Shown piece after piece: positions 36,735 to 47,830 of a stretch of DNA of 48,883 nucleotides. Source of the DNA: Streptosporangiaceae bacterium (GTDB taxonomy: Bacteria > Actinomycetota > Actinomycetes > Streptosporangiales > Streptosporangiaceae); NCBI GenBank assembly GCA_025935815.1, contig JAICUO010000002.1, positions 1 through 48,883 on the forward strand, read 5' to 3'. The notes beneath the pieces are model-generated. The model was given only the letters and a program-made list of their open reading frames with translations. It was not told the origin of the DNA and made no database searches. Both the position numbers and the translations under genes were made by a program. How positions within the stretch are numbered: the first letter of the stretch is position 1; each line of letters begins with the position of its first letter.

Positions 36735-38189
36735 CTGCCCGATACCCCGCCCTCCGCGACCGAGGTGCTGGCTGGTCTCCCGGGTCCCCGGCCCGACGAT
36801 GACCGCCTGCGCGCCTCCATCCGCGCGATGCGGGCCGCGGACGGACTGCTGCTGGGCGTGCTGGACGATGACCCGACCGGGTCGCAGGCGGTGCACGGCG
36901 TCCAGGTGGTGACCGCGCTGGAGGAGGAGGCGTACGCCGCCGCGCTGGCCGGCCCGGCCGCGACCTGCTTCGTGCTGACCAACACCCGCAGCCTGGACGA
37001 GCCGGCCGCCGCCGGGGTCAACGTCCGGGCGGCGCGGGGCCTGGTGTCCGTGGCCGAACGGCGCGGCACCCGCGTGCAACTCCTCAGCCGCAGCGACTCG
37101 ACCTTGCGCGGGCACGTGATGGCGGAGGTGGCGGCCCTGGAGTCGGTGCGCCGGGCGACGGCCGGCCGCGGGTACGACGGCGTGCTGCTCGTTCCGGCGT
37201 TCCTGGAGGCCGGGCGGCTGACCGCCGGCGACATCCACTGGGCCCGCGCCGGCGGCCGCCTGGTGCCGGTGGGCGAGACCGAGTTCGCGCGGGACGCCGC
37301 GTTCGGCTACCGCGCGTCGAACCTGCGTGACTTCGTGGCGGAGAAGAGCGGCGGCACGATCCGCCGGGATGACGTCGCCAGCATCGGCCTGGCCGACATC
37401 AGGCTCGGCGGCCCGGAGCGCGTCCGCGAGCTGCTGGCCGGGGCGCGGGACGGCAGGTGGGTCGTGGTCAACGCCACCGAGTACTCCGACCTGGAGGCGG
37501 TCGCCGCCGGGGTCCTGATCGCCGAGCGCGCGGGCTCGTCGTTCCTGTTCCGCACCGGCCCGTCGTTCGTGCGCGCGCTGGCCGGCATGGACCCGCGGGC
37601 GCCGCTGCGCAGCGCCGACATCTGGCCGGCGGGCGGGCCCCCGCCCGGCGGGCACGGCCTCGTGGTGGTGGGGTCGCACGTCGGCCAGACCAGCCGCCAG
37701 CTCGCGGCCCTGCGGGCTCGCGGCGGCATCGCCTCCGTCGAGCTGGACGTCCCCGCCGTCGTCGCCGGCCGCGAGGTGGCGGCCGACACGGCGCGGCAGG
37801 TGATCGCCGCGCTCCACGATGGCGACGTGCTGCTGTACACCAGCCGCGCGGTGGCCACGGGCACCGATGGTGCCGGGAGCCTGGCGATCGCCCGCACGGT
37901 ATCCGCCGCCTTGTCGCGGATCGCTGGCCAGGCGCTGGCCGCCCGGCCCGCCTGGATCGTCGCCAAGGGCGGGATCACCTCCCACGACATCGCCCAGCAG
38001 GGGCTCGGCATCCGCCGCGCCGAGGTGGCCGGGCAGCTGTTTCCCGGCGTCATCTCCCTGCTGCGGCCGCTGGACGCGGCGCCCGGGGCGATCGGCGTGC
38101 CCTACGTGGTGTTCGCCGGGAACGTCGGCGACGACGAAACCCTCGCCGACGTGGTGTCCATCCTCAACGGCGAGCGGGACGAGCGCTGA
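36735..38189 (+). CDS. Four-carbon acid sugar kinase family protein (DUF1537), probable CTG start
   Basis: Predicted cytosolic ATP-dependent kinase of the DUF1537 family, which phosphorylates four-carbon sugar acids such as threonate or erythronate. Key blocks are DDDPTGSQAVHG near the N-terminus, LTNTRSL, SRSDSTLRGH, VGSHVGQTS and IVAKGGITSHDIA with the nucleotide-binding region near the C-terminus. In frame after the TAG at 36711, only CTG 36735 and GTG 36765 can start it. AAAGGAGG lies 6 nt before the CTG, while nothing precedes the GTG, so CTG is preferred, giving about 484 residues. A dehydrogenase-like gene begins in the TGATG overlap at its end but is cut short. Confidence 0.88.
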   Translation: MPDTPPSATEVLAGLPGPRPDDDRLRASIRAMRAADGLLLGVLDDDPTGSQAVHGVQVVTALEEEAYAAALAGPAATCFVLTNTRSLDEPAAAGVNVRAARGLVSVAERRGTRVQLLSRSDSTLRGHVMAEVAALESVRRATAGRGYDGVLLVPAFLEAGRLTAGDIHWARAGGRLVPVGETEFARDAAFGYRASNLRDFVAEKSGGTIRRDDVASIGLADIRLGGPERVRELLAGARDGRWVVVNATEYSDLEAVAAGVLIAERAGSSFLFRTGPSFVRALAGMDPRAPLRSADIWPAGGPPPGGHGLVVVGSHVGQTSRQLAALRARGGIASVELDVPAVVAGREVAADTARQVIAALHDGDVLLYTSRAVATGTDGAGSLAIARTVSAALSRIAGQALAARPAWIVAKGGITSHDIAQQGLGIRRAEVAGQLFPGVISLLRPLDAAPGAIGVPYVVFAGNVGDDETLADVVSILNGERDER

Positions 38190-38230
38190 TGCGAGTCGGC
38201 TGGCTGGGGCTGGGTGCTCCGGCGCGAGCG
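38189..38230 (+). pseudogene. 5' remnant of an NAD-binding dehydrogenase gene (3-hydroxyisobutyrate dehydrogenase type)
   Basis: An ATG in the TGATG overlap with the DUF1537 stop starts the peptide MRVGWLGLGAP. This matches the N-terminal Rossmann GxGxxG strand of 3-hydroxyisobutyrate/four-carbon-acid dehydrogenases, the usual partner of DUF1537 kinases. The similarity stops within about 12 codons, and the minus-strand unknown gene ends at 38282. The gene therefore appears truncated, with the block to its right occupying its place. Confidence 0.6.
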
Positions 38231-38281
38231 CGGCGCGTCGGCCCCGGGGAAGATCCCCCCGTCGTCACCGGCTGCGGGACG

Positions 38282-39007
38282 TCAGCCGAGCAGGCCGGTG
38301 AGCGTTTCCCGCACGCCGGCGCCGTCCAGGGAGCGCGGCGCCAGCGCCGCGCGGTCGGCGGACGCCCGGGAGAAGGCGTGCAGCTTGCCGTCGTGGCGCG
38401 CCAGGACCAGGTCAGTGCTGGCCCCGGCGATCTCCGCCGACCCTCGCGTGGTGTAGCGGGTGACGGTAATGAGGGCGGAGCGCTCGGCCGAGGCGAGCAG
38501 GGCGTCGGGATCGGCCACCGCGCCCGGGCCGGCCTCTTCGCCCCTCGGCAGCCACTCGGCCACGAAGCGCAGGGCATCCTCGAGCGTGTACAGGCCCAGC
38601 TCGTGCACGCCGAGCGCGTCGATGCGGACCATCAGGCAGATTGGCTCGGGCTGGGGCAGCAGCAGGACCCGCCATGGCTCACCGGGCACCGTTCCGGTCG
38701 AGCGAGCGTCCAGGACGATCCGGGACCGCTGCTGGAACGCGACCGCGATGCCGAGGTCCCCGCGCACCTGCACCTGCTGGCCGGATGAGCCGGCCACCAG
38801 CAGCTGGCGGGCGGCTAGCGAGCGGACCGCCTCGGCCAGCACGTCGGCCGACGGCCGGGTTTCCAGGAAGTCCACGATCGCGTCCACGGCGGTCAGCTCC
38901 GCGGCGGTGTACGCGCCCAGCAGCACCGGCCCGGTGTCAACCAGGTGCACCACCGCCGAGACGAGGCCTTCCGGGACCGCCGCGCTGTTGGCGGCCGGCT
39001 CACCCAT
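38282..39007 (-). CDS. Unrecognised protein B of the zinc-hook ATPase block
   Basis: No family recognised. It encodes 241 residues, mostly helical at the N-terminus (VSAVVHLVDTGPVLLGAY) with a mixed alpha/beta middle (WRVLLLPQPEPICLMVRIDALGVHELGLY, shown by WRVLLLPQPEPICLM) and a C-terminal strand-rich part (LVLARHDGKLHAFSR). There are no catalytic motifs, signal peptide or membrane segments. Its ATG overlaps the stop of the upstream partner by 8 bp, so it is translated with it. The context (divergent Rad50-like ATPase) suggests an accessory subunit, but this is unproven. Confidence 0.75.
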   Translation of the reverse strand: MGEPAANSAAVPEGLVSAVVHLVDTGPVLLGAYTAAELTAVDAIVDFLETRPSADVLAEAVRSLAARQLLVAGSSGQQVQVRGDLGIAVAFQQRSRIVLDARSTGTVPGEPWRVLLLPQPEPICLMVRIDALGVHELGLYTLEDALRFVAEWLPRGEEAGPGAVADPDALLASAERSALITVTRYTTRGSAEIAGASTDLVLARHDGKLHAFSRASADRAALAPRSLDGAGVRETLTGLLG

Positions 39008-39917
39008 GGCCGCCCGCCGCTGCCCCCAGCAGTCCCTCGGGCATCTGCTCCCCCCGTTGTGCGAAGACCGCCGCGGCGGTCAGCGACGGTGTCTCGGTCA
39101 CCCACACCTCAGAGCTCCCGAACAGGCCCCGCCCGGCCCGCCCGGCCAGCGCCTGGCCGAGCTCGCCGGCCGGGTCCGCCCGCTGCGGGGGCGGGAACCG
39201 GGCGGCCAGGTCCCGTGACGCCGCGGTCACGTCATCGTCGGCCTCGATCTGGCGCAACGCCGAGGCCAGCGACTCCGCCACCGCGGGGGCCAGCGGCGTG
39301 GGGACGGCCACGATGGGCGACAGGTACATGGGGCGCCGCTCGGTCAGCCGGGACAGCCCCCACGGCCCGACGTTGCTGCGGGTCACCCGGTACACGAGGT
39401 AATCGACCAGGTGAAGCACGTCGGTGGGGCTGGGCAGCTTCCGCTTGCCGAAGGCGGCCGGGGTCTTCTCCAGTTGCACCCACGTGCCCTGCGCCGTCCG
39501 CCCGTGCAGCTTTTCCCGGACGACCTGCCCGCGCATCCCGATGTCGGGGTAGCGGGACTTGTCGATGTCACGGTGGTGGCTGGATATGCGCAGGTGGCTG
39601 ACCTGGTCGAACCGCCACTTCTGGTACAGCTTCGGATCATCGACCAGGACGTGCCCCCCGCAGAGCAGGTCATGCAGCTGCGGCACCTGCAGGCCGTGCT
39701 CCTCCAGGTCGGAGATGATCTCCGCTTCCTCCGGGCTCAGGCGCTTAGCCGCCGCGAGCAGGCCCTTGCGGTAGGCCTCGGCCCGCGCGGTGATCTCGAT
39801 CATCAGCTGGACCCGGGTCCGCTCCAGTTCGGCCCGCTGCTCGGCAGCCGTCCCCACCGGCCGGCGGCCGGGCCGCCCGGCTTGCCTGATGACCTGCAGT
39901 GCCTGCTTGCGGTCCAC
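39000..39917 (-). CDS. Unrecognised protein A of the zinc-hook ATPase block
   Basis: No family recognised. From GTG 39917 (VDRKQALQVIRQ) it has 305 residues; an open frame to 40025 is possible but crosses poorly coding sequence. Residues 20-90 form a charged helix pair (QRAELERTRVQLMIEIT, SPEEAEIISDLEEH). The middle is rich in His, Arg and Asp (ISSHHRDIDKSRYPDIG, HGRTAQGTWVQLEKTPA), and the C-terminus is Ala/Pro-rich. The RDIDKSRYPDIG block could hold a nuclease- or metal-type site, but no known motif is complete. It is the first gene of a minus-strand pair divergent from the Rad50-like ATPase. Confidence 0.75.
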   Translation of the reverse strand: MDRKQALQVIRQAGRPGRRPVGTAAEQRAELERTRVQLMIEITARAEAYRKGLLAAAKRLSPEEAEIISDLEEHGLQVPQLHDLLCGGHVLVDDPKLYQKWRFDQVSHLRISSHHRDIDKSRYPDIGMRGQVVREKLHGRTAQGTWVQLEKTPAAFGKRKLPSPTDVLHLVDYLVYRVTRSNVGPWGLSRLTERRPMYLSPIVAVPTPLAPAVAESLASALRQIEADDDVTAASRDLAARFPPPQRADPAGELGQALAGRAGRGLFGSSEVWVTETPSLTAAAVFAQRGEQMPEGLLGAAAGGHG

Positions 39918-40058
39918 GCTCCCAGTAGACCACGGGCCGCAATCGCCGACGAGCCCGGTGGGCAGCGCAGCGGGCCCGCGATCGACTGGCTGGACCAGCT
40001 CCGCCAGCCCTAATCGGCGCAACATATCGCAACAAGGTGAAGTGCGGTCACTCTATGT

Positions 40059-40075
40059 GATAGTTCGAGTATGTG
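40059..40075 (+). promoter_or_regulatory. Candidate -10 box and near-leaderless start of the zinc-hook ATPase
   Basis: GATAGT (40059-40064) lies 8 bp before the GTG at 40073, so transcription would begin at or next to the start codon. No ribosome site is visible, which agrees with a leaderless message. No clear -35 box was found. Confidence 0.4.
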
Positions 40076-42574
40076 AATGACGGACTGCTCGACATCGTGC
40101 TTCAGCGGCTGGCGGTGGTCGCGCTTCCCGACGAGGCTGCGGACCTGCTCTTGGCCGCCCTGGACGGGGACCAGGCGCTGGCCGCGCAGCTCGACGCCGA
40201 CGCCGGCGCCGGCGCCGGCACCGGGGAGCGATACGCGCCGACCCAAAGCACCGGCAGCGGCCCCGAGCCGGTCGGCGCCTACCTGCAGTCGCTGACCGTC
40301 AGCGGGTTCCGGGGCATCGGGCCTGCCGCCACGCTGGACGTCTACCCGGCACCCGGCCTGACGCTGGTGGTCGGCCGGAACGGCAGCGGCAAGTCCAGCT
40401 TCGCGGAAGGGCTTGAGGTCCTGCTGACCGGCACGCTGATGCGCTGGTCAGCGCCGGGCACGCCCGTGGTCTTCAAGGAGGGCTGGCAGAACAAGCACGC
40501 CACCGGCGATATCGAGGCCCGCGCGGGCTTCCTGATCGAGGGAATGGGCAAGGCAACCGTCGCCCGCACCTGGCCGGGCGGCGCTGACATCGCCGGTTCC
40601 AGTTCCTGGCTGCAGGTGGCGGGCCAGAAGCGCCGCCCGGTCGACGGCCTCGGCTGGGGCAGCGCCCTGAGCACCTACCGGCCGTTCCTGTCCCACGCTG
40701 AGCTTGAGGCGTTCTTCGGGCGTCCATCGGAACTCCATGACCTGCTGGCCTCGGTGCTCGGCCTCGATGAGCTGACCGACGCGGCCGCCCGGCTGAACGC
40801 CGCCAGGAAACAGCGCGACGAGATGCTGAATGACGTCAAGCGGCGACTGGAGCCGCTCAGGGAACGGCTGGCCGCAGTGGACGACGAGCGGGCCCGGGCC
40901 TGCCTGGCCGCCCTGAAGGGCCGGACCTGGGACGTGGAGGCCGCCCGGTCGGCGGCCGTTGGAGGAGCGGCCGCCGATAGCGGCCCGCTCGCCCCGCTGC
41001 GGCAACTCGCTCAGCTCAGCCGGCCGGCGGACGCCGAGGTTACCTCGGCGGCAGCGGCGGCGCGCGCTGCCGCGGACGGCATCGAGGCCATAGCGGGGAC
41101 CAGCGCGGGGCAGGCGCGCAGCCTGGCTGAGTTGCTCGACGCCGCCCTGCGCCACCACGCGACTCACGGCGACGGCGATTGCCCGGTCTGCGGCCAGGCG
41201 GGCGCCTTGACGACGCAGTGGGCGCAGGCGACCCGGGAGCATCTCAGCCGCCTACGCGATGAGGCGAAAATCGCCGAGGAGACCGCCCGGGCGGCCCGCG
41301 CCGCCGCCGACCAGGCGCTCGCGCTCCTACGGCAACCGCCACCGGTGCTCGCCGAGTCGGCGGCGGGCTCTGTCGCGGGCGTTGACGTGAAGCCGGCGCG
41401 CGACGCCTGGCGCGCCTGGGCCACCCCGCCGGCCGGCGCCGCCGCTGGCCTGACCTCGCCGGCCGGCCTGCGGGAACTCGCCGGCCACCTGGAGACGTCG
41501 GCGATCGAGCTGTCCGACGCGATCACCACTGTCTCCGCCGCGGCCGCGGCCGAGCTGACCCGACGGGATGACCAGTGGGTTCCGCTGGCTAGCGACGTCG
41601 CATCCTGGTGCGCCGACGCCGAGCCGGCCGTTAGGGCGAGCCAGCCGGTCAAGGCACTCAAGGACGCGCGGACCTGGCTGAACGACGCCACCGCCGACTT
41701 GCGCAACGACCGGCTGGCACCACTGGCCGACCAGGCACGGAAGATCTGGTCACGGCTGCGGCAGGAGAGCAACGTCGACCTCGGCGCGTTCCGGCTATCC
41801 GGCATCGCCAACCGGCGGGCGCTGGAGCTCGACGTCACCATCGACGGAACGCCAGGCGCCGCGCTCGCCACCATGAGCCAGGGCGAGGTCAACGCGCTCG
41901 CGCTGAGCATCTTCTTGCCCCGCGCCACCATGGCGGCCAGCCCGTTCCGGTTCCTGGTCATCGATGACCCGGTCCAGGCGATGGACCCGGCCAAGGTTGA
42001 CGGGCTCGCCCAGGTCCTCCACGAGGTCGCGGCCAGCCGCCAGGTCATCGTCTTCACGCACGACAACCGGCTGGCCACCGCCGTGCGGACCCTGTCCATC
42101 CCGGCGACGATCCTCGAGGTGACCCGGCGCCCGCGTTCGGCCGTGGAGATCCGGCCCTGCCTTGATCCGATCCGGCAGGCGCTCAAGGACGCCCGCGACC
42201 TCAAGAAGGACACCAACGTACCCGAAGGCGTGGCGCGCCGGGTGGTGCCCGGTCTGTGCCGGACCGCCGTGGAGGCCGCGTTCACCCAGGCGTTCTGGTG
42301 GCGCGAGCTGAGCGCCGGCCACGCCCGGGCCACGATCGAAGCCCAGCTGGCCGCGAGCCCGCACTCCCTCACCCGCGTCGCTGCCCTCGCCATGTTCGGC
42401 GACCCCGACGAGGGCGGCCGGGTCCTGCCCGCGCTTGACCGGTGGGGCAAGGTTCACGCCGACACGTACCGCGCGCTGAACAAGGGCGCGCACGAGCCAT
42501 ACGCCGGGGATCTGGCCGGGCTCATCTCCGACAGCCGCGGCCTCGCCGCGAAGATCGGGGAAAGGCTGCCGTGA
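40073..42574 (+). CDS. Rad50/SbcC-like AAA ATPase with zinc hook and C-terminal helical domain
   Basis: Predicted SMC-type ATPase of 833 residues. ABC N-half: Walker A GRNGSGKSS (101-109), after the strand LQSLTVSGFRGI. Coiled-coil arms surround a zinc hook DCPVCGQ (C370, C373). ABC C-half: signature MSQGEVNALALSIFLPRA (from 601) and Walker B FRFLVIDDPVQAMDP (from 625), then FTHDNRLATAV. From about residue 700 a helical domain ends in ALNKGAHEPYAGDL, resembling HEPN/DUF4145-like segments. The arms are shorter than in Rad50 and no Mre11 partner is present. GTGA overlap couples it to the next gene. Defence-related ATPases (RloC, Lamassu LmuB types) share this layout, so a phage-defence role is possible. 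Confidence 0.9.
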   Translation: MNDGLLDIVLQRLAVVALPDEAADLLLAALDGDQALAAQLDADAGAGAGTGERYAPTQSTGSGPEPVGAYLQSLTVSGFRGIGPAATLDVYPAPGLTLVVGRNGSGKSSFAEGLEVLLTGTLMRWSAPGTPVVFKEGWQNKHATGDIEARAGFLIEGMGKATVARTWPGGADIAGSSSWLQVAGQKRRPVDGLGWGSALSTYRPFLSHAELEAFFGRPSELHDLLASVLGLDELTDAAARLNAARKQRDEMLNDVKRRLEPLRERLAAVDDERARACLAALKGRTWDVEAARSAAVGGAAADSGPLAPLRQLAQLSRPADAEVTSAAAAARAAADGIEAIAGTSAGQARSLAELLDAALRHHATHGDGDCPVCGQAGALTTQWAQATREHLSRLRDEAKIAEETARAARAAADQALALLRQPPPVLAESAAGSVAGVDVKPARDAWRAWATPPAGAAAGLTSPAGLRELAGHLETSAIELSDAITTVSAAAAAELTRRDDQWVPLASDVASWCADAEPAVRASQPVKALKDARTWLNDATADLRNDRLAPLADQARKIWSRLRQESNVDLGAFRLSGIANRRALELDVTIDGTPGAALATMSQGEVNALALSIFLPRATMAASPFRFLVIDDPVQAMDPAKVDGLAQVLHEVAASRQVIVFTHDNRLATAVRTLSIPATILEVTRRPRSAVEIRPCLDPIRQALKDARDLKKDTNVPEGVARRVVPGLCRTAVEAAFTQAFWWRELSAGHARATIEAQLAASPHSLTRVAALAMFGDPDEGGRVLPALDRWGKVHADTYRALNKGAHEPYAGDLAGLISDSRGLAAKIGERLP

Positions 42575-42936
42575 CTCCGGAACAGCTGCTGGCCGCCGCC
42601 CGGGAGCTCATCACCCGGCCAGACGCGGCGATCGCCGGGGTGTGGCCGCGAACCGCGGCGCTGCTAGCACGCCAAGCCCTCGAGGAAGCGGTCGACTCCC
42701 GTTGGGCATCCGGGCCAGAAACGGGCCCAATGCGTCAGGCGGCCATGCACTCACAGCTGATCTGCCTGCCCGCCTACCTGGACTCCGCCCTCGCTCACCA
42801 GGTCGCCTACACCTGGGCCGCCCTCAGTAACGCCTGCCACTACCACCCTTATGAGCTCGCCCCCACCTCCGGCGAGCTAACCGCGTGGATCAGCGACGTC
42901 GCGACCCTCACCTCCTGCATCCAGCAGTCAGCCTGA
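42571..42936 (+). CDS. Small helical protein coupled to the zinc-hook ATPase
   Basis: Unrecognised 121-residue protein whose GTG overlaps the ATPase stop (GTGA). It is all-helical: LLARQALEEAVDSRW near the N-terminus and a conserved-looking ALSNACHYHPYELAP segment near the C-terminus. That segment aligns with ALNKGAHEPYAGDL in the ATPase tail, and the preceding helices also match in spacing. The two proteins may therefore share one domain type, possibly HEPN-like, although the catalytic Arg of HEPN nucleases is not present here. It is probably an effector or regulator of the ATPase. Confidence 0.7.
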   Translation: MTPEQLLAAARELITRPDAAIAGVWPRTAALLARQALEEAVDSRWASGPETGPMRQAAMHSQLICLPAYLDSALAHQVAYTWAALSNACHYHPYELAPTSGELTAWISDVATLTSCIQQSA

Positions 42937-42968
42937 CGCGCGCCCGCCCGCCTTGGCGATCACCTCGA

Positions 42969-45872
42969 TCAGCCGGTGGTGCGCGCGATCGCGCCGAGTG
43001 CCAGGTCGATCACCTGACGGTTGTCCAGGAGCCTGCCCCGCTCCGTGCAGTCGCGGAACTCGGCGGCGGTCAGCTGCTCGCGCAGCCGGGCCTCGACCTC
43101 GCGCAGCAGGTCGGCGTCGGCCCCGTAGGCCGGCGCGCCCGTGGTCGCCGAGGTGGCCGCCCCGTACAAGGTGGCCGCGTCCCGGCTGGCGCCGACGCGG
43201 GCCAGCAGGTCAATGAGGGTGCGCAGGGTGATCCACTGCGGCGTCCAGGCTCCCGCGTGCCCCCACTGGGGGATGACCCGCTGGTAGTAGGCCAGCGCGG
43301 TGGCGGGCTCGCCGTGCCGGGCGTGCAGCGCGGCCATGGTGACCTCGGCCAGCCCGGCGACCAGCCGGCTGTCGGCGACCGCGGCCAACTCGATGGCCCG
43401 TTCCAGGTGCCGTACGGCCTCGCCGGGGTCGGTGAGCGCGGCGATCTCGCCGGTGGTCCAGGCGGCGATCGCCAGTGCCGACGGCGCGCCCGAGGCGGCG
43501 GCGGCGTCCGCGCAGCGTCGTGCCCAGTGGCGCGCCTCCTCCAGCCGGCCGTCATAGGTCAAGGCGGCGGCGGCGCTGCTCGCGTCCCACGCGGCGTCAA
43601 GGTGCTCACCCTCCGCCATCGACAGGTGATACGCCTGGTCGTAGACGCTGGCGGCGCGCTCGAGGTCGCCGCGGAAGATGCCGACGTCGCCGAGCGCCTC
43701 CAGCGCCCGGCGGGCGGCCACCGGGGCCAGGGACCGCGCGGCCTGGAGCGCGGCGTGGGCCGCGGTCTCGGCGGTCCCCAGGTCGCCGCGGTACACCGCG
43801 CCGAGGGCGGCGGAGGCCAGGGAGTCCGGGTAAAACGGCGAGCGCGAGCCCGCGGCGGCGGCCGCGCTCACGTCGGCCCACCGGAACACCTCCGGCTGGC
43901 AGCGCCACTGCGCGTACCAGTGCAGCTCGGCGGTCATCCGCAGGCCGAGCTCGGTGTCGTGGCCAGCCGTCCAGCCGTGGGCGGCGCGCAGGTCATCAAG
44001 GTGGCCGCCGAGCCTCGCCGCCCACGCCGCCTCGGCCGGGCCGCGCATCCCGCGGTCCGCCTGCGTCACCAGCGCGGCGGCCCAGCGGGCATGCCGGCCA
44101 TGCGCCGCCTCCAGCTCGCCGCGCTCTTCCAGCCGCTCCAGCCCGTAGCCGCGCAGCGTCTCCAGCATGCGGTAGCGGGCGGTGTCACCGTCGCGGCGGG
44201 CGCTGATCAGCGACCGGTCGGCCAGCTGGAGCACGAGGGGGGCGATGCCGCCCGGCTCGCTGGCGGACACGGCGCCGGCGTCACTGATGTCGAACCAGCC
44301 CCGGAACACCGACAGCTGGTCGAACAGCCGCTGCTCGGCCGGCGGCAGCTGCTGGTAGGACCAGTCGGCCACGGCCCGCAGCGACTGATGGCGGGCATCG
44401 GCCCGGCGGCCGACGGTCAGCAGGCCGAACCGGTCGTTCAGGTTGCGGGCCAGCTCGGCGATCGTGGTGCCGGGCAGCCGGGCGGCGGCCAGCTCGATGG
44501 CGAGCGGCAGGCCGTCCAGCCGGGCGCACAGTGCCGCGATCTCGCCGGCGTCGGCGGCGACGAAGGTCGGGTCCGCCGCGCGCGCCCGGTCCAGGAACAG
44601 CCGCACCGCCGGGGACCGCGGGCCATCGGCGCTCAGCGGCCGGACCGGCCACCGGTGCTCGCCGTCGACCCGCAGTCGTTCGCGGCTGGTGGCCAGCACG
44701 GTGACGCTCCGGGTCTCCCGCAGCAGCCGCTCGGCGATGATCGCCACCGCGTCGGCGACATGCTCGCAGTTGTCCAGCACCAGGAGCAGGTCCCGGCCCG
44801 CCAGGTCCGCGACGAGCTGGTCCTCCAGCGGCTGAAAGGCGCGCTCGCTGAGCCCGACCGCGGTGGCGATCGCCGGTGTGACGGCGGCGGGCCGCCGGAT
44901 CGCGGCCAGGTCGCACAGGCGCGCCCCGTCCCGGTAGCGGGAGCCGATCCGGGCGGTCACCTCCAGGGCCAGCCGGGTCTTTCCCACGCCGCCCGGCCCG
45001 TGCAGGGTCAGCAGCCGCGCCTCACCCAGCAGCCCGGTGATGGCCCGGTAGTCCTCCTCGCGTCCCACGAAGCTCGTCACCGGCACCGGCAGCGGCAGCG
45101 CCCGGCTGGCCGGGCGGGCGGGCGCCTCCGGCGCCGGGAGCGCGTGCCGCAGGATGTCCTGTTCGATGCCCCGCAAGGCGGGCGAGGGATCCAGTCCCAG
45201 GTCCTCGGCCAGGTAGTGACGCCAGGACCGGAAGGCGGCGAGGGCGTCGGTAGGCCGGCCGCCACGGTAGAGGGCCTGCATGAGCAGGCCCCGGGACCGC
45301 TCTCGCTCCGGGTGCTCGGCCAGCACGGCCTGCAAGGCGGCGGCCGCGTCCTCGGCGCGGCCCTGCGCCAGCAGCAGCTCGGCCCGCCGCTCCCGCGCCG
45401 CCAGGTGGAGCTCATCCAGCCGGATGGCCTCCGGCATGGCGAACAGCCGGTCGGTGAACTCAGCCAGCGCCAGGCCCCGCCACAGGGCAAGCACCTGGTC
45501 AAGCCGCACGAGTGCCTGCTCGCCGGTCGCCTGCGTGGCGGCCGCCAGACCGTCTTCGAAGCGGGCCGCGTCCAGCTCGCCGCGCTGCAGGCTGAGCCGG
45601 TAGCCGCCCCCGACGGCGGCCAGGCCGGTCCCGGCCGGGCCGAGCGCGCGGCGCAGGCGGGAGACCTGCGTGCGCAGCGCGGCGGGCGGATCCGCTGGCA
45701 GCGCCTCTCCCCACAGCTCGTCGATGAGGCGGCTGGCGGGGACGACGCGGTTGGCGGCCACCAGCAGCATCGCCAGCACCAGTCGCTGCCTGGCGCCGGC
45801 CAGCTCAATGACGCGGCCATCCACGCGTGCCTCGACCGGGCCAAGCAGCCCGTACTCCCACCGGGCCACCAT
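42969..45872 (-). CDS. AfsR/SARP-type regulator with BTAD, NB-ARC ATPase and TPR domains
   Basis: Predicted DNA-binding signalling regulator of 967 residues. An OmpR-type winged helix (about 1-95, with LRTQVSRLRRALG and the typical GGGYRLSL) is followed by the bacterial transcriptional activator domain (about 95-245, ending YLAEDLGLDPSPALRGIEQDIL, shown by DLGLDPSPALR). An NB-ARC ATPase follows with P-loop GPGGVGKTR at about residue 291 and LLLVLDNCEHV as Walker B. The last 350 residues are TPR-like helices. GAGGAGG precedes ATG 45872. Such proteins often control secondary metabolism. The neighbouring berberine-bridge-type oxidoreductase is divergent and could be a target. Confidence 0.92.
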   Translation of the reverse strand: MVARWEYGLLGPVEARVDGRVIELAGARQRLVLAMLLVAANRVVPASRLIDELWGEALPADPPAALRTQVSRLRRALGPAGTGLAAVGGGYRLSLQRGELDAARFEDGLAAATQATGEQALVRLDQVLALWRGLALAEFTDRLFAMPEAIRLDELHLAARERRAELLLAQGRAEDAAAALQAVLAEHPERERSRGLLMQALYRGGRPTDALAAFRSWRHYLAEDLGLDPSPALRGIEQDILRHALPAPEAPARPASRALPLPVPVTSFVGREEDYRAITGLLGEARLLTLHGPGGVGKTRLALEVTARIGSRYRDGARLCDLAAIRRPAAVTPAIATAVGLSERAFQPLEDQLVADLAGRDLLLVLDNCEHVADAVAIIAERLLRETRSVTVLATSRERLRVDGEHRWPVRPLSADGPRSPAVRLFLDRARAADPTFVAADAGEIAALCARLDGLPLAIELAAARLPGTTIAELARNLNDRFGLLTVGRRADARHQSLRAVADWSYQQLPPAEQRLFDQLSVFRGWFDISDAGAVSASEPGGIAPLVLQLADRSLISARRDGDTARYRMLETLRGYGLERLEERGELEAAHGRHARWAAALVTQADRGMRGPAEAAWAARLGGHLDDLRAAHGWTAGHDTELGLRMTAELHWYAQWRCQPEVFRWADVSAAAAAGSRSPFYPDSLASAALGAVYRGDLGTAETAAHAALQAARSLAPVAARRALEALGDVGIFRGDLERAASVYDQAYHLSMAEGEHLDAAWDASSAAAALTYDGRLEEARHWARRCADAAAASGAPSALAIAAWTTGEIAALTDPGEAVRHLERAIELAAVADSRLVAGLAEVTMAALHARHGEPATALAYYQRVIPQWGHAGAWTPQWITLRTLIDLLARVGASRDAATLYGAATSATTGAPAYGADADLLREVEARLREQLTAAEFRDCTERGRLLDNRQVIDLALGAIARTTG

Positions 45873-46010
45873 GACCTCCTCACCCCGTCCCCAGCATCAC
45901 ACAGCCCAGGCCACGTCCGCGACACGGGAGCGACACGGGAGCGACACGCCGGTGACAGGGCGGCCGGGGATAGTGGTTGACATTCGCCCGGTGCCTGAGG
46001 AGGAGATGTG

Positions 46011-47387
46011 ATGGACAACGTGATCACGGTCGCGGACGAGGTGCGGTCGGCGTTCGCCGGCGAGCTCATCGGCCCCGCCGACCCGGGATACGACCAGGCC
46101 CGCCGCGTGCACAACGGCCTGATCGACAAGCGGCCCGCGCTGATCGCCCGGTGCCATACCGTCCCCGACGTCGCCGACGCGGTCCGGATCGGCCGCGAGC
46201 AGGCGAGCGAGATCTCGGTGCGCGGCGGTGGCCACGGCGTCGCCGGGCTGGCGGTCACCGACGGCGGCCTGATGATCGACCTCGCCCCGATGAAGGGCAT
46301 CAGGGTCGACCCGGGCCGGCTGACGGTGTGGGCCCAGGCCGGCGTGACCTGGAAGGAGCTCAACCGGGCGGCGGCCGGCCACGGGCTGGCCACCACCGGC
46401 GGGGTGGTCTCCAGCACCGGGATCGCCGGGCTCACCCTGGGCGGCGGCGAGGGCTGGCTGATGGGCAAGTACGGCCTCACCATCGACAATCTCCGCAACG
46501 TGGAGGTGGTGACGGCGGACGGGCAAACCATCCGCGCGAGTGCGCAGGAGAACGCCGACCTGTTCTGGGCCCTGCGTGGCGGCGGCGGCAATTTCGGCGT
46601 GGCCACCAGCTTCGAGTACCAGGCGCACCCGGTGTCCACCATCCATGGCGGGCTGGTCGTCCACCCCATCAGCCGCGCCCGGGACGCCCTCGCCTGCTAC
46701 CGCGACCTCACCAGCTCGGCCCCCGACGAGCTCACCGTGTACTTCAACATGTTCGCCGACGCCGCCGCGCCGAGGGACAAGTACGTCGCCATGGCGGCCT
46801 GCCACTGCGGTGACCCCGCGACCGCGGAGGCCGACCTCAAGCCGCTGCGGCAGTTCGGCCCGCCGGTCAGCGAGGACATCAAGGCCATGCCGTACCCGGT
46901 GATGAACACGCTCAGCGACGCGGGCTACCCCCGGGGGGCGCTCAACTACTGGAAGTCGGCGTTCCTGCGCGAGCTGTCCGATGGCGCGCTCGACGCCATG
47001 ACCGAGGCGCTGCACCGGTGCCCGTCGCCGATGAGCGGCCTGGGGATCGTGCCCTACCTCGGCGCGGTGTCGCGCGTCGAGCCGACCGCGACCGCCTTCG
47101 CTCACCGCGCGCCCGGGTACAGCCTGCTGATCGTGTCCCAGTGGCTAGACTGCTCCGACACCGACGTCAACATCGCGTGGGCCAGGGAGACCTTCGAGCA
47201 ACTGCGCCCGTACCTGGCCCACCGCCAGTACCTGAACAACCTGCCCGCCGATGACGGGCGGGTCGCCCGCGACCTGTGGGGCGTCAACTACGAGCGGCTC
47301 GTCAGCGTCAAGCGGCGCTACGACCCGGACAACGCCTTCCGCCTCAACCACAACATCAACCCCGGGGCGGGCGAGGCGGCGCGATGA
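46011..47387 (+). CDS. FAD-linked (berberine-bridge/BBE-type) oxidoreductase
   Basis: Predicted flavoprotein oxidase of 458 residues. The PP-loop FAD domain shows SVRGGGHGVAGLAV, whose His is the usual covalent 8-alpha linkage, then GGVVSSTGIAGLTLGGGEGW and KYGLTIDNL. The Cys needed for a second, bicovalent linkage is not seen in the second motif. The C-terminal BBE segment ends YLNNLPADD, VNYERLVSVKRRYDPDNAF. GAGGAGG precedes ATG 46011. Such enzymes oxidise alcohols, sugars or natural products. It is divergent from the BTAD regulator, suggesting a tailoring or oxidation role under its control. Confidence 0.9.
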   Translation: MDNVITVADEVRSAFAGELIGPADPGYDQARRVHNGLIDKRPALIARCHTVPDVADAVRIGREQASEISVRGGGHGVAGLAVTDGGLMIDLAPMKGIRVDPGRLTVWAQAGVTWKELNRAAAGHGLATTGGVVSSTGIAGLTLGGGEGWLMGKYGLTIDNLRNVEVVTADGQTIRASAQENADLFWALRGGGGNFGVATSFEYQAHPVSTIHGGLVVHPISRARDALACYRDLTSSAPDELTVYFNMFADAAAPRDKYVAMAACHCGDPATAEADLKPLRQFGPPVSEDIKAMPYPVMNTLSDAGYPRGALNYWKSAFLRELSDGALDAMTEALHRCPSPMSGLGIVPYLGAVSRVEPTATAFAHRAPGYSLLIVSQWLDCSDTDVNIAWARETFEQLRPYLAHRQYLNNLPADDGRVARDLWGVNYERLVSVKRRYDPDNAFRLNHNINPGAGEAAR

Positions 47388-47766
47388 CCAGGATGACACC
47401 GAGGATGGCGCTGATCCCGAGGCTGATGATGATCCCGGCGATGTCGGTGGCCGATCCGGTCAGGTGGGTGAGGTGGTAGCCGAAGTGGAGCACGCCGAAG
47501 ACCGTCCATGCCAGGCCGGCCATAACGCCCGGGGTGGCGGTGCGGGCGATGATCCCGGCCACGCTGATCGCGGTGAGCGCGAGGTACAAGCTGCCGACGT
47601 CGCGGATGAGGTGCTCATCCCAGGCTCCGCTGTCGCTGATCCAGTGCCGCCCGAAGCCGGGGAACGAGGTGTAGAAGGCGTGCGGGAGGAACTCGGCCCA
47701 GATTCCGACGTAGAGGCCGACGGCCACGGTCAAGGCGAGTATCAGCCGCCGCGATGGTGTGTTCAC
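47356..47766 (-). CDS. Small integral membrane protein (4 TM), unknown function
   Basis: Unrecognised 136-residue protein with about four transmembrane segments (LILALTVAVGLYVGIW, LYLALTAISVAGIIA, VMAGLAWTVFGVLHFGYHL, IAGIIISLGISAILGVILV). A polar loop after the first segment (SFPGFGRHWISDSGAWDEHLIRD) has a charged pattern with several aromatic residues. It converges on the FAD oxidoreductase gene and overlaps it by 32 bp. Family members of this size are usually annotated only as membrane proteins; no motif for transport or catalysis was seen. Confidence 0.75.
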   Translation of the reverse strand: MNTPSRRLILALTVAVGLYVGIWAEFLPHAFYTSFPGFGRHWISDSGAWDEHLIRDVGSLYLALTAISVAGIIARTATPGVMAGLAWTVFGVLHFGYHLTHLTGSATDIAGIIISLGISAILGVILVIAPPRPPRG

Positions 47767-47830
47767 GCCACCAGGACGGCGCAGCCCCCGGGAGTGTGAC
47801 GTGCGGGGGCCGCCCCGCGCGGCCGCCGCA

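Follow-up and report, generated by a model that had tools for sequence, protein, structure and literature searches.

Catabolic gene pairs of the LtnD-OtnK type join a DUF1537-family kinase to an L-threonate/2-hydroxyacid dehydrogenase. Bacterial dehydrogenases and kinases of this sort serve one L-threonate route (PMC12540250). The locus described here, which lies in a 48,883-base-pair (bp) stretch of a Streptosporangiaceae bacterium (contig JAICUO010000002.1 of assembly GCA_025935815.1; this whole stretch is referred to as the window), resembles these pairs in that a dehydrogenase start is found directly behind its kinase gene and related intact pairs occur in Actinomycetota, but differs from them in that the dehydrogenase has been cut down to about 70 bp, which cannot work, leaving the kinase with no intact partner beside it. 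It likewise resembles known cases of gene decay in which short direct repeats mark an internal deletion, as the join falls on a 5-bp repeat, both gene ends are retained and the flanks are unaltered; there is nothing unusual about the window in this respect, the mechanism being read from the join alone. Further downstream lies a unit reminiscent of the AAA/SMC-type ATPase and small helical partner of phage-defence cassettes, the likeness being a pair of overlapping genes that stay together at different places in several genomes, although this unit gives weak partial matches to several PADLOC models and is not filed as any named system.

An initial annotation had taken the broken dehydrogenase for the left boundary of an ATPase block that had replaced the rest of the kinase operon and might therefore be mobile. 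This is partly supported, as what had been observed at the kinase end was right, whereas the interpretation was mostly wrong: the site is, with high probability, what an internal deletion has left of the dehydrogenase gene in an ordinary threonate/erythronate-type kinase-dehydrogenase pair, and the ATPase unit is separate from it.

Results

The kinase stop codon (TGA, 38187-38189) does overlap the start of a dehydrogenase-like frame, with its final A opening the ATG at 38189, and the frame that follows reads MRVGWLGLGAPARARR. Its codons 1-10 agree with those that open the intact dehydrogenase downstream of the equivalent kinase at 9/10 residues in one relative (G024) and at all ten (MRVGWLGLGA) in another (L062, a bog actinobacterial assembly). 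The likeness ends after codon 10, in keeping with the annotated failure of the gene within about 12 codons, but the frame itself continues without a stop as far as 38788, lying antisense to m1 on the minus strand and showing a non-coding codon composition. A real 199-amino-acid (aa) protein starting at 38189 was considered and rejected, there being no family match and a G+C content by codon position (0.91/0.56/0.78) unlike that of the neighbouring genes.

While the gene is indeed broken, it is not simply truncated, since its 3' end, overlooked earlier, survives immediately behind the 5' remnant (Table 1). The junction can be read directly from three sequences, namely the 5' end in L062 (CTGGGTGCGATG), the 3' part in the congener G002 (GAGGTGCTCC) and the window (CTGGGTGCTCC), and no foreign sequence lies between the codon 10 and codon ~285 parts in the window. 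Two 29-base pieces of the remnant match the G002 dehydrogenase segment, in order, at 27/29 and 29/29 bases, whereas 2,000 random 29-mers of the window reach at most 22. That no gene had ever been present, the Rossmann-like start having arisen by chance, is hardly credible in the face of these ordered matches and of an overlapping start common to four genomes, even if a motif of 10 codons is short. The 25 bp at 38258-38282, beyond the 3' remnant, gave no informative match.

Table 1. Features at and downstream of the dehydrogenase scar, with window positions.
Feature	Positions	Strand	Evidence
Intact DUF1537-family (OtnK/DtnK-like) acid-sugar kinase, 474 aa	36765..38189	+	Pfam SBD_N (E 9e-48), NBD_C (E 5e-31)
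TGATG, kinase stop overlapping dehydrogenase ATG	38187..38191	+	Sequence; identical TGATG in G024, L062 and G002
5' dehydrogenase remnant (codons 1-10)	38189..38217	+	27/29 bases identical to G002; MRVGWLGLGA identical in L062
GGTGC, 5-bp overlap closing the internal deletion	38213..38217	+	Left end in L062, right end in G002
3' dehydrogenase remnant (VLRRERGASAPGEDP, from codon ~285; out of frame with the ATG)	38213..38257	+	97.8% to C-terminal part of G002 remnant, 46 alignment columns
m1, protein of 241 aa, function unassigned	38282..39007	-	92% to G002, equivalent place including stop; beside m2 in G006, G021, G024
m2, function unassigned, overlaps m1	39000..40025	-	94% to G002; with m1 as a pair in 5 genomes
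Segment missing in G002, where 77 bp stand in its place; real extent of ATPase unit	39964..42962	.	Collinear blastn chain
SMC/RecF-type AAA ATPase, 833 aa	40073..42574	+	SMC_N (E 6e-15); 51-57% relatives in G005, G018, G144
Small partner overlapping ATPase, 136 aa; HEPN-like by inspection only	42529..42936	+	Behind ATPase in G005, G018, G144, 50-64% identical

That the remnant belongs to the usual partner of a DUF1537 kinase, as had been proposed, is borne out by the relatives. An intact kinase-dehydrogenase pair joined by TGATG is found in both G024, where the partner is a 310-aa dehydrogenase beginning MRIGWLGLGAMGAPMA, and L062, where it has 301 aa and begins MRVGWLGLGAMGAPMA, and a dehydrogenase gene of this kind lies directly behind the kinase in 48 of the 75 kinase loci with enough downstream sequence. 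The best match of a related partner (in G033) was to L-threonate dehydrogenase (NF043037), at 253.8 bits against a cut-off of 350.

The window was compared with its congener by a collinear blastn chain, in which window positions 6093-48883 align to contig 92 of G002 as 20 collinear blocks with 19 gaps in about 43 kilobases (kb), at 85-98% identity. This pattern points to fast turnover by insertion and deletion, and with 19 such gaps over so short a distance the scar is routine turnover as well. Several of the gaps close with a few bases of overlap. Collinearity runs through the kinase, the remnant, m1 and m2, with 94-96% identity on both sides of the scar. In G002 the dehydrogenase is left as three pieces in different frames (codons 1-110, 145-170 and 232/237 to the end), so the gene appears to be dead in both congeners, through different internal deletions. 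An MFS transporter gene of about 1.5 kb lies between the dehydrogenase remnant and m1 in G002 and is missing from the window; the remainder of the window genome yielded no ortholog of it. G004 and G007 carry relatives of this gene at other places, next to a gene that by inspection resembles isopropylmalate/tartrate dehydrogenase, and these relatives do not decide whether the window lost it.

The kinase itself scores 163 and 109 bits with the two Pfam models (cut-offs 25 and 28), is 94% identical to that of G002 and 75% to that of L062, and falls below the NCBIfam D-threonate kinase equivalog cut-off (53.7 versus 450 bits). It is a DUF1537 (OtnK/DtnK) family member, assigned no further than the family level. 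Its ratio of nonsynonymous to synonymous substitution rates (dN/dS) to G002 is 0.30, above that of four neighbouring genes (0.09-0.22; Fisher p 0.047). Relaxed selection was accordingly entertained and then set aside, since L062 and G024, both with an intact partner gene, give 0.295 when their kinases are compared with each other. The kinase thus seems to be under normal purifying constraint, with no sign of decay so far, and much of its divergence may predate the loss of the dehydrogenase.

The minus-strand gene m1 ends at 38282, just as annotated, and together with m2 is found at the equivalent position in G002, where the DNA of the two genes is about 95% identical and the ATPase is missing. 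The same neighbouring pair is found in G006, G021 and G024, with no ATPase in the loci read there. Neither gene, then, is part of the ATPase block, judging by these alignments. The true start of m2 is possibly internal to its open reading frame, as the first ~21 codons lack a G002 counterpart. The pair (38282-40025) is strongly conserved (65-94% identity) and has no family match; for m2 this covers Pfam, NCBIfam and PADLOC. Of the genomes sampled, m2 was found in only 5/200 of the family and 3/297 of the order. The dN/dS to G002 is 0.70 for m1 (21 nonsynonymous and 12 synonymous changes) and 0.28 for m2. Structures predicted from five sequences were of low confidence (mean predicted local distance difference test scores of 57 for m1 and 39 for m2), and a fold search with the m1 model returned nothing meaningful.

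Some 1.7 kb past the scar, the ATPase gene and the small gene overlapping it (40073-42936) form a separate two-gene cassette with a history of its own. At the threshold used for the search, G002 as a whole yielded no relative of the ATPase, and the 77 bp present there instead gave no informative match. In G005, G018 and G144 the two genes again stand side by side amid unrelated surroundings, and the loci read there contain neither m1 nor m2 nor the kinase; being kept together in differing surroundings is compatible with a mobile unit, and the unit may be mobile, but the dehydrogenase scar is no evidence for it. The difference from G002 could be an insertion in the window or a deletion in G002. 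Next to it, at window positions 42963-43118, G002 retains just a 28-codon piece of a BTAD-type regulator gene and lacks 43119-47819, the latter absence suggesting that G002 also lost sequence adjoining the ATPase point.

Discussion

An internal deletion accounts for the scar, as both ends of the dehydrogenase are kept. G024 and L062 retain intact, ancestor-like pairs in which TGATG serves both as the end of the kinase and as the beginning of the dehydrogenase. The window lacks what lies between codon 10 and about codon 285 (some 0.8 kb, going by the intact gene), and the ends are joined at GGTGC. The join would fit a deletion of the microhomology type, whether by replication slippage or end-joining, that presumably postdates the divergence from G002, and this dehydrogenase would no longer be made from the locus. 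Some points do speak against this account: the assemblies of the window genome, G002, G024 and L062 are drafts, most of them from metagenomes, and were judged at the level of contigs, the MFS gene difference would fit a loss in the window as well as a gain in G002, and the break in the dehydrogenase may already have been present in the common ancestor with G002.

The draft state of the genomes is also what an assembly or binning artefact would feed on, i.e., a misjoined contig with a full dehydrogenase in the real genome, and the window genome does consist of 1,009 contigs at 83% completeness. Such an artefact is nevertheless very unlikely, as both sides of the scar are collinear with G002, the G002 copy is independently broken, and the overlap at the join is just 5 bp, far below assembler word length. 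The insertion of a mobile block made up of the minus-strand genes and the ATPase, replacing the rest of the operon, is likewise very improbable and is contradicted by G002. It would account for the absence of the ATPase unit from the matching place in G002, its patchy distribution in the family, its unrelated surroundings elsewhere and the distant ATPase relatives on plasmids, but not for a dehydrogenase 3' end retained between its start and m1, for m1 and m2 standing in place in G002, where the dehydrogenase decayed without any ATPase, or for an ATPase unit starting well past the scar. The edges of the break run from dehydrogenase to dehydrogenase, those of the ATPase unit lie at about 39964 and 42962, and a comparison of these two ATPase edges gave no shared repeat above 7 bp. 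The scar is thus, with high probability, that of an internal deletion unrelated to the ATPase genes.

The kinase might have been retained for another role, or be paired with a dehydrogenase encoded elsewhere, in which case the adjacent loss in two congeners would represent a pathway change rather than a decay of the function as a whole, although we regard this as a tentative and rather doubtful suggestion. For the ATPase unit, a supposed landmark is removed: it is to be delimited at about 39964-42962, not at 38282, and m1 and m2 are not to be counted in it. The scar per se is a real but ordinary gene loss in a catabolic pair of a soil actinobacterium, and one more example of its kind.
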